Source: Gammaproteobacteria bacterium (lineage in GTDB: Bacteria > Pseudomonadota > Gammaproteobacteria > Steroidobacterales > XN24). From it: 64,000 nt of DNA. The DNA lies in contig JARFQW010000066.1 of assembly GCA_029287575.1 (NCBI GenBank), forward strand, positions 1 to 64,000, in the 5' to 3' direction. Shown piece by piece: positions 43,060-44,850 of the stretch (within the stretch, counting starts at the first letter, position 1; each line of letters opens with the position of its first letter). A model generated the notes under the pieces. It did not search any database, was not told the DNA's origin, and saw only the letters and a list, made by a program, of their open reading frames with translations. A program made the position numbers and the translations under genes.

Positions 43060-43761
43060 CTAGGCGAAGACCACGTACACGCGGCGGTTCTGGCGGCCCT
43101 TTTTCTGAATCCGCGTGACCTGGATGGGGCCAATCTCTCCGGTACTGCGGACATGCGTGCCGCCGCAGGGCTGAAGGTCGACCCCGGGGATCTCCAGCAA
43201 GCGAACGTCTCCGGCGCCTCGCGGCGGGCTGACCGACAAGGTTCTGACCAGTTCCGGGCGGGCATCGAGTTCTGCCTCGTCCACCCAGTAGGCGCGCACG
43301 GGGCGGTCGGCGCTGATCAGTTGGTTCACGGCCGCGGTAATGGCGTCCTTGTCGGCGCCGGCCGGCATGTCCAGGTCCAGCCGGCTCCGCTCGGCGGAAA
43401 TATTTCCGCCGGTCACCGGGTGCGGAAGAACCGCCCCGATAAGGTGCAGGCAGGTGTGCATGCGCATGTGAGCGTAGCGGCGCTCCCAGTCGATTTCGGC
43501 GCGCACGGTCTCGCCGGCCGCTGGACACGGCACGCCTGGCTCGACCATGTGGACGATGCCGCCGGCATCGTCGTGGACCGTGTTCACGATCCGAACCGCC
43601 GAGTCCGTGCCCCATCGGATCCAGCCGGTGTCGCCAGGCTGACCGCCGCCGAGGGGGTAGAACACCGTTTGGTCCAGGACCAGACCGTCCGCGCCGGAGT
43701 CCTGAACCGTCGCCTCGCAGGCCCGGCGGTAGGCATCGTCGCGGAACAGTTCCCGTGTCAC
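43060..43761 (-). CDS. AlaX-like alanyl-tRNA editing protein
   Basis: A 233-residue trans-editing protein that hydrolyses mischarged Ser- or Gly-tRNA(Ala). It has TVFYPLGGGQPGDTG, the zinc-site pair HTCLH (102-106) and CGGTHV (about 200), as in the AlaRS editing domain. No catalytic synthetase core or C-Ala domain is present. The GTG start at 43761 overlaps the DUF2914 gene stop (GTGA). The gene is followed two bases later by the glycosyltransferase. Confidence 0.9.
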   Translation of the reverse strand: MTRELFRDDAYRRACEATVQDSGADGLVLDQTVFYPLGGGQPGDTGWIRWGTDSAVRIVNTVHDDAGGIVHMVEPGVPCPAAGETVRAEIDWERRYAHMRMHTCLHLIGAVLPHPVTGGNISAERSRLDLDMPAGADKDAITAAVNQLISADRPVRAYWVDEAELDARPELVRTLSVSPPRGAGDVRLLEIPGVDLQPCGGTHVRSTGEIGPIQVTRIQKKGRQNRRVYVVFA

Positions 43762-44723
43762 CGCGATGAACTCCCCGGGGATTCCACCGCGCCGTCGTTG
43801 ACTGTCAGCCGCGGCGTGTCCTCCGCATACTCAAACGATTGCTCGGCGAGGAGGCGATCGTCGCCGTCGCGAAGCTCTATCCGCCACATACCGAGCTGTC
43901 CGGGCTCCAGGTCCTTCGCCGAGAACACTCGCCAGCGGTAATTGCTTCCCACCGAGAATCGACGTTCCGCCATAAGCGCGCCGTCCAGCAGCCAGCGGTG
44001 AACAATTTCACTGCCGCCGGCGTTGCGGACGTCCGTATAGAAATAGACACGCTGAATGTCCGGGAAGGCGGAGAGCACATCGCTGACCGGGCCGACGGGT
44101 TCCCGGTCAACGACATCCAGGGCAAGCAGGGCCCGGCGGGCTTCGGGTGGCTCCAGGGGCGGGGCCTCTTCTGCCCTGTTGCCCGGTTCGCGGGTCGCTT
44201 CGGGCTGCCGGATCTCCCGGGATACGGCTTCAGAAACCCCGGCGGCGGACCGGCCGTCCGGGGACTGTTCCGGTTCCGGTTCACGCACGGACGAGGGGGC
44301 CGTTTCGCCGCCCGGGCGTGCCGTGGCGGAAGCCCCCGCCCGATTCTCCGGCGTCTGGGCGCCGTCCGTGGATGAGCCCGTGCTGATGATCCGGTAGGCG
44401 GCCAAGGAAATCAGCGCAATGCCGACCGCGACCCCGGCAGCAATGCCGGCACGACGGGTCAGCCGGCGGGCGGCGCGCGGTGGCGGCGGCCCGGACTCGG
44501 AGCCCGGATCCTTGTCGGCCTCCCGGAGTGCCTGCGCCAGCGTCATCTCCGGGAAGGCGCCGAGAGTCTGCCGGCGCACGATGCCGTCGAATCGATAGAC
44601 CAGGACCCAAATCTTCACGCCATTCGGGAACACCGCGAAAAACAGGTCGTCGGCCACCTGAATCTCGTAGCGGCGCTCCCGCGGAGGGAGGTCCCGAAAA
44701 TCGTCGTCGGTGAAGCTGTTCAT
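43758..44723 (-). CDS. Integrase-arm-like / TM / DUF2914 fusion protein
   Basis: A 321-residue protein with an unusual layout. Residues ~12-71 look like the arm-type DNA-binding domain of tyrosine integrases (DUF4102): NGVKIWVLVYRFDGIVRRQTLG and FPEMTLAQALREADK. A single membrane helix follows (92-112). A long Pro/Glu-rich linker (113-215) leads to a DUF2914 domain (about 235-310: VYFYTDVRNAGG, HRWLLDGALM, NYRWRVFSAKDL). No integrase catalytic domain is present. It may be a membrane-bound protein with a cytoplasmic nucleic-acid-binding head, but no function is known. The start at 44723 is the first Met before the arm-like domain. Confidence 0.75.
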   Translation of the reverse strand: MNSFTDDDFRDLPPRERRYEIQVADDLFFAVFPNGVKIWVLVYRFDGIVRRQTLGAFPEMTLAQALREADKDPGSESGPPPPRAARRLTRRAGIAAGVAVGIALISLAAYRIISTGSSTDGAQTPENRAGASATARPGGETAPSSVREPEPEQSPDGRSAAGVSEAVSREIRQPEATREPGNRAEEAPPLEPPEARRALLALDVVDREPVGPVSDVLSAFPDIQRVYFYTDVRNAGGSEIVHRWLLDGALMAERRFSVGSNYRWRVFSAKDLEPGQLGMWRIELRDGDDRLLAEQSFEYAEDTPRLTVNDGAVESPGSSSR

Positions 44724-44850
44724 CCTTGGTCCGGCGCTGTATTGCGGGGCTCCAAACTGGGGGGCAGGCCACCTGACGGCATCCATCCCGTGGGCCGTGG
44801 CTACTCATACTCGAAAAAGTCGCCGCGCATGTCCAGTGCACGGTCGGCGC

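Follow-up and report, generated by a model that had tools for sequence, protein, structure and literature searches.

An integrase arm-type domain joined to a membrane helix and DUF2914: a putative cytoplasmic protein-interaction head in one gammaproteobacterial order

Membrane one-component regulators of the CadC/ToxR type are composed of an N-in head, one membrane helix and a periplasmic domain, the head being a winged helix. RodZ, as portrayed in PMC6946637, consists of a cytoplasmic head of a DNA-binding type, a basic juxtamembrane stretch, one helix, a disordered periplasmic stretch and a beta domain. The same paper describes a head that does not bind DNA and a periplasmic part that is largely dispensable (PMC6946637). 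Arm domains are discussed in a survey of tyrosine recombinases, which takes the presence of such a domain in such an enzyme to predict mobility function strongly (PMC8138268).

The window, meaning the whole stretch of DNA that was analysed, comprises 64,000 nt of Gammaproteobacteria bacterium (GCA_029287575.1, contig JARFQW010000066.1, positions 1-64,000, forward strand). It encodes a member of a protein family in which the arm domain occurs outside any recombinase, amid ordinary chromosomal genes, and in which it is now neutral or acidic rather than basic; a change of use of a DNA-binding module thereby becomes directly testable. The family also warns that a match to the arm domain does not always mean an integrase, and it offers a starting point for DUF2914, on whose function a literature search returned nothing. 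We regard the product, with a probability of about 0.55, as a bitopic inner-membrane protein whose exapted tyrosine-integrase arm acts as a cytoplasmic protein-interaction head. The features concerned are as follows.

43758..44723, minus strand: fusion gene, 321 aa, arm domain - membrane helix - linker - DUF2914, stop codon counted in (open frame, Pfam, homologues)
44508..44723, minus strand: integrase arm-type domain, residues 1-72, predicted cytoplasmic, PF13356 at residues 14-71 (Pfam, PDB, model)
44382..44474, minus strand: basic juxtamembrane stretch and single membrane helix, residues 84-114, hydrophobic core 92-110 (model, hydropathy)
44154..44381, minus strand: linker, residues 115-190, low-confidence, predicted disordered and periplasmic (low pLDDT)
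43821..44153, minus strand: beta-sandwich with DUF2914, residues 191-301, predicted periplasmic, PF11141 at 43830-44009 (Pfam, model)
43060..43761, minus strand: AlaX-like alanyl-tRNA editing gene, downstream of the fusion gene (tRNA_SAD, tRNA-synt_2c)

The fusion protein has head, membrane helix and periplasmic domain in the same order as CadC/ToxR, but the winged-helix head of those regulators has no Pfam counterpart in it at E <= 10. Its likeness to RodZ lies in the N-in bitopic layout and the periplasmic beta domain, which in the fusion protein are predictions only. The head of RodZ is a helix-turn-helix, whereas here it is an arm domain, and HTH_25 is not among the matches at E <= 10; separate HTH_25 genes are present in 7/7 genomes of the host's taxonomic family. 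Homology to RodZ was considered and rejected, as the profile alignment covers mostly the helix and a low-complexity linker at 7% identity. Judged by its sequence, the fusion protein is not a RodZ.

Domains and topology of the fusion protein

The fusion gene is present as a single copy in its own genome. A start at 44723 agrees better with the N-termini of homologues than the start of the longer open reading frame at 44786, and the GTG start of the AlaX-like gene overlaps the end of the fusion gene by 4 bases. The initial annotation had proposed an N-terminal arm-type domain (DUF4102) without a recombinase domain, followed by a membrane helix, a linker and DUF2914, and each of these elements was recovered. 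In the Pfam search at E <= 10 the protein matched two families in all, PF13356 and PF11141, and both scored over their cut-offs. PF13356 (Arm-DNA-bind_3) reached 34.7 bits against a cut-off of 27 (E 1.9e-8), and it was matched at E <= 0.1 in 16 of the 17 family members; PF11141 (DUF2914), at residues 239-298, reached 53.7 bits against 23.6 (E 1.7e-14).

The identity of the arm is further supported by structure. A phmmer search against PDB sequences returned only 3jtz_A (E 8e-7) and 3ju0_A (E 2.4e-6), both of which are integrase arm domains. In an AlphaFold2 model built from 17 homologues, the arm is confident (pLDDT 88-97 as block means, residues 1-70) and superposes on 3jtz with Z 12.4 and an rmsd of 2.3 over 75 residues, so that the predicted fold is indeed that of an integrase arm; 3rmp and 3ju0 gave Z 11.8 and 11.7, with rmsd 1.9-2.3 for the three structures. 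Chance similarity is ruled out by the Pfam score, the PDB sequence matches and the fold match. The arms of P4-like and IntSXT tyrosine integrases (PF13356, DUF4102; 3jtz, 3ju0, 3rmp) share the profile, the fold and an adjoining place in the tree. Unlike those enzymes, the fusion protein lacks a core-binding or catalytic domain, continues with a membrane helix and has lost the basic charge of the arm. In addition, a phage protein family, PHROG 3423 (profile of 157 positions), matches residues 5-70 (window:44514-44711).

Behind the arm, the model contains a helix at residues 84-114, a linker of low confidence and a confident sandwich at 194-301. The hydrophobic stretch at 92-110 has a KD value of 2.04 and is flanked by five K/R residues on the N side versus one on the C side, and such an excess on the N side of the membrane segment is present in 17/17 aligned members. 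This constant basic flank predicts that the arm lies in the cytoplasm and DUF2914 in the periplasm. Three features are established by computation: the arm domain, a single membrane segment whose N-side flank is basic, and a DUF2914 sandwich. The C-terminal sandwich resembles Ig-like folds, for instance PA1606 (3n6y, Z 10.3), as well as RhoGDI; the fold is a common one, and therefore no function is inferred from these matches. A search for a solved structure of any DUF2914 sequence found none.

Distribution, variants and origin of the arm

A relative of the fusion gene was found in 7/7 sampled genomes of the host's taxonomic family. Across the order, a search with the profile of the protein family identified carriers in 17 of 97 genomes, distributed over five taxonomic families: f1 7/7, f4 1/4, f5 3/3 (including one gene cut by a contig end), f9 2/2 and f16 4/5, compared with 0/76 in all others. 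Family genes scored 130-393 bits (pieces counted apart) versus at most 67 for arm-only matches; arm-only matches were also numerous in an order-wide search of 296 genomes, where they were classed as integrases by frame length and score. When 94 genomes of the order were scanned for DUF2914, 14 of them held 18 places that exceeded the cut-off; a further place scored below it. A full arm precedes 14 of the 18, two have only part of an arm (G021:C25 and, at a contig end, G046:C9) and two are unreadable (G037:C282, at a contig end, and G002, with a run of N), so none of the 18 is known to be without an arm.

In 369 genomes of the class, a profile search found DUF2914 proteins to be widespread. Among the matches listed there, the DUF2914 ones besides that of the window begin at profile position 101 at least, behind the arm; unlike the fusion protein, none of those listed has an arm domain, although the C-terminal domain is the same and the proteins are secreted or tethered. 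Those read outside the order have a short N-terminus followed by a signal- or anchor-like segment. At 20 DUF2914 loci outside the order, one glnE-type gene lies nearby and GGDEF matches are scattered, with otherwise no common context. Four tethered DUF2914 proteins outside the order (L064, L066, L067 and L068) share a short TLKIKIxL-type sequence at their cytoplasmic start, and tandem pairs of tethered DUF2914 genes occur in three genomes of the class (L065, L069 and L077).

In the samples taken, the fusion is confined to some taxonomic families of one order. Plasmid records compared with the full protein gave 17 matches, all with 16-21% query cover over the arm. The family alignment, compared with IMG/VR by search patterns derived from the arm, gave 27 loci, all inside query residues 2-82. 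On these plasmid and IMG/VR results, the idea that mobile elements carry the fusion was rejected. A phage search returned 100 records, integrases where annotated; its query was the arm alone, so it is no test of the fusion. A defence role was likewise rejected: PADLOC did not match the window protein and gave a single weak match (95-267), in one of three proteins. The literature search on arm-domain fusions found nothing relevant.

Two variants of the family were observed. Genus g4 of f1 has, in 3/3 genomes, a short form of 128-129 aa that consists of the arm and the membrane helix:

L037:9643-10026, L038:9795-10181, L039:9907-10290: short forms

The DUF2914 scan found no DUF2914 gene in these three genomes, which suggests that DUF2914 is dispensable there. 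Four f16 genomes (G021, G034, G046 and G056) carry two paralogues each. Separately, the family member at L044:9716-10774 is missing the first part of the arm, through either a truncated arm or a shifted frame.

Regarding the origin of the arm, 398 genomes from the phylum were searched with the arm alone, and the closest sequences outside the family proved to be full integrases. Of 74 arms, 72 entered a tree and two (<60 residues) did not; the 17 arms of the family fall together with one partial arm in a single clade (support 100/98) that adjoins real tyrosine integrases. The tree was computed from 71 columns, and its integrases are a partial sample. The partial arm, L016, belongs to a DUF2914 fusion but is labelled INT by score in the tree, and the charge counts do not include it. 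Grouped with the family clade are 11 integrases (a 29-row group), nine of them from other classes. That the arm was captured once from an integrase lineage is well supported in this sample; with only 71 columns and many open forks, the donor is not fixed.

Charge, selection and the possible role of the head

The most pronounced change in the captured arm concerns its charge. The 17 aligned family arms have a mean net charge of -1.8 (range -5 to +4), as opposed to +6.7 (3 to 10) in 13 related integrase arms and +6.7 (2 to 10) in 41 others (Mann-Whitney p 5e-6 and 2e-9, respectively). The 13 were chosen by hand, 11 of them falling in the 29-row group and L133 and L139 outside it. The integrases were picked because they resemble the family, a choice that works against the contrast. 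Conserved neighbour frames have a median charge of -1.7 per 100 residues (192 frames), hence host acidity hardly explains the shift, and the arm has about the charge of an ordinary protein.

Single positions changed as well. Position 23 is D/E in 53/54 integrase arms and in 0/17 family arms, and the family has largely lost the basic R30, R/K48, R/K3, R7 and K13 found in the related integrases. The family arms retain W39, G35, P33, G55, P58 and A65, still conserve R50, R51 and K37, and have gained an invariant N34 as well as hydrophobic residues at 23 and 32. At positions 40 and 42 the family and the related integrases alike are hydrophobic, so these two argue neither way. We infer the DNA-contacting positions of the arm, and DNA binding by the family arms appears unlikely from their charge and residues. 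For comparison, the net charge is -3 for the E. coli RodZ head and +1 for the E. coli CadC DNA-binding domain, which means that charge alone cannot decide DNA binding. The loss of most of the positive charge suggests that the arm now does a different job.

The arm is under strong purifying selection. In 4/4 pairs of full fusions, dN is lowest in the arm among the three parts of the protein; values for the arm are, for instance, dN 0.007 and dS 0.279 in L042/L046, and dN 0.116 and dS 1.381 in L047/L053, with dS saturated in some pairs. Between short forms, the dN of the arm was below that of the rest in one of two pairs, the exception being L037/L039 (arm 0.143 versus rest 0.123).

These observations can be combined into a possible sequence of events. 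An integrase arm would have been captured once and placed before a membrane helix and DUF2914, after which the head would have ceased to bind arm-site DNA. It may now bind a protein, or itself, and a cytoplasmic partner could in this manner be linked through the membrane and the flexible linker to the periplasmic DUF2914. The working principle would be comparable to that of RodZ, in which an XRE-type head binds MreB instead of DNA. The broader proposal, in which an arm was domesticated once outside recombinases, turned from a DNA- to a protein-binding head and kept vertically as an independently evolved counterpart of RodZ, is put forward more tentatively, at slightly under even odds. The initial annotation had suggested that a DNA-binding module was captured for a membrane-tethered role. 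Its first half, the capture, is supported by the single clade, the confinement of the fusion to one order in the samples and the strong conservation; its second, an arm that still binds DNA, is not supported, given the disappearance of the positive charge, of several basic positions and of a nearly universal acidic one.

The protein-binding head is favoured over a membrane one-component regulator of the CadC/ToxR type, in which a periplasmic DUF2914 would sense an envelope signal and the arm would bind promoter DNA. Such a regulator is rather unlikely, even though the layout derived from the model and the membrane segment is compatible with it, the arm is a bona fide PF13356 in both sequence and fold, R50, R51 and K37 persist, the value for CadC itself makes a low charge compatible, and the gene of one subgroup diverges from a glnE-type gene across a short gap. 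Opposed to it are the charge shift relative to all integrase arms compared, together with the lost basic positions, the retention of the head without any DUF2914 in three genomes and, as a weak negative, the lack of an operator-like repeat common to the 8 upstream regions scanned. Non-specific anchoring of the nucleoid or of DNA to the membrane would suit the membrane placement and the arm fold; however, non-specific DNA contact usually requires positive charge, and with neutral to acidic arms this explanation is very improbable.

A partnerless arm, acting as a mere folded cytoplasmic plug for the topology or stability of DUF2914, is improbable too. Tethered DUF2914 proteins outside the order, which manage with a short N-terminus, speak for it, but the arm has a lower dN than DUF2914 in all four pairs of full fusions and persists without DUF2914 in three genomes. 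Finally, the arm derives from integrases, as would be expected of a decaying remnant; yet a remnant, a chance fusion in one lineage or a misassembly is scarcely credible when the same gene occurs in five taxonomic families, on contigs of many genomes, and is under purifying selection. A decaying integrase or prophage edge is ruled out by this conservation and by the chromosomal neighbours.

Gene neighbourhoods

The conserved neighbours of the family are ordinary chromosomal genes, namely groES-groEL, glnE, heptose genes, a KefB-type antiporter and AlaX, with names mostly assigned by reading sequences and only AlaX and the antiporter scanned. Among the paralogues, one type is divergent from a glnE-type gene in L041, L044, L045, L048, L050 and L052, and in L041, L044, L045 and L052 it is also convergent with groEL. 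The other type precedes a HAD-hydrolase-type gene (L043, L047, L051 and L053). An AlaX relative is located downstream of the family gene in L035 and L036 as well, which represent another genus of the same taxonomic family. Conserved neighbours differ between subgroups, and thus the context indicates no partner.

Two further observations concern the surroundings of the gene. In three genera of the taxonomic family, though not in the window, the family gene has a KefB/CPA2-type antiporter gene immediately upstream (L034:7633-9504, L035:10693-12522 and L038:10181-11998). Moreover, a PMT_2-type (ArnT-like) glycosyltransferase gene is situated near AlaX at window:41369-43015, and L010 (the L034 contig) has a similar sequence close to its family gene.
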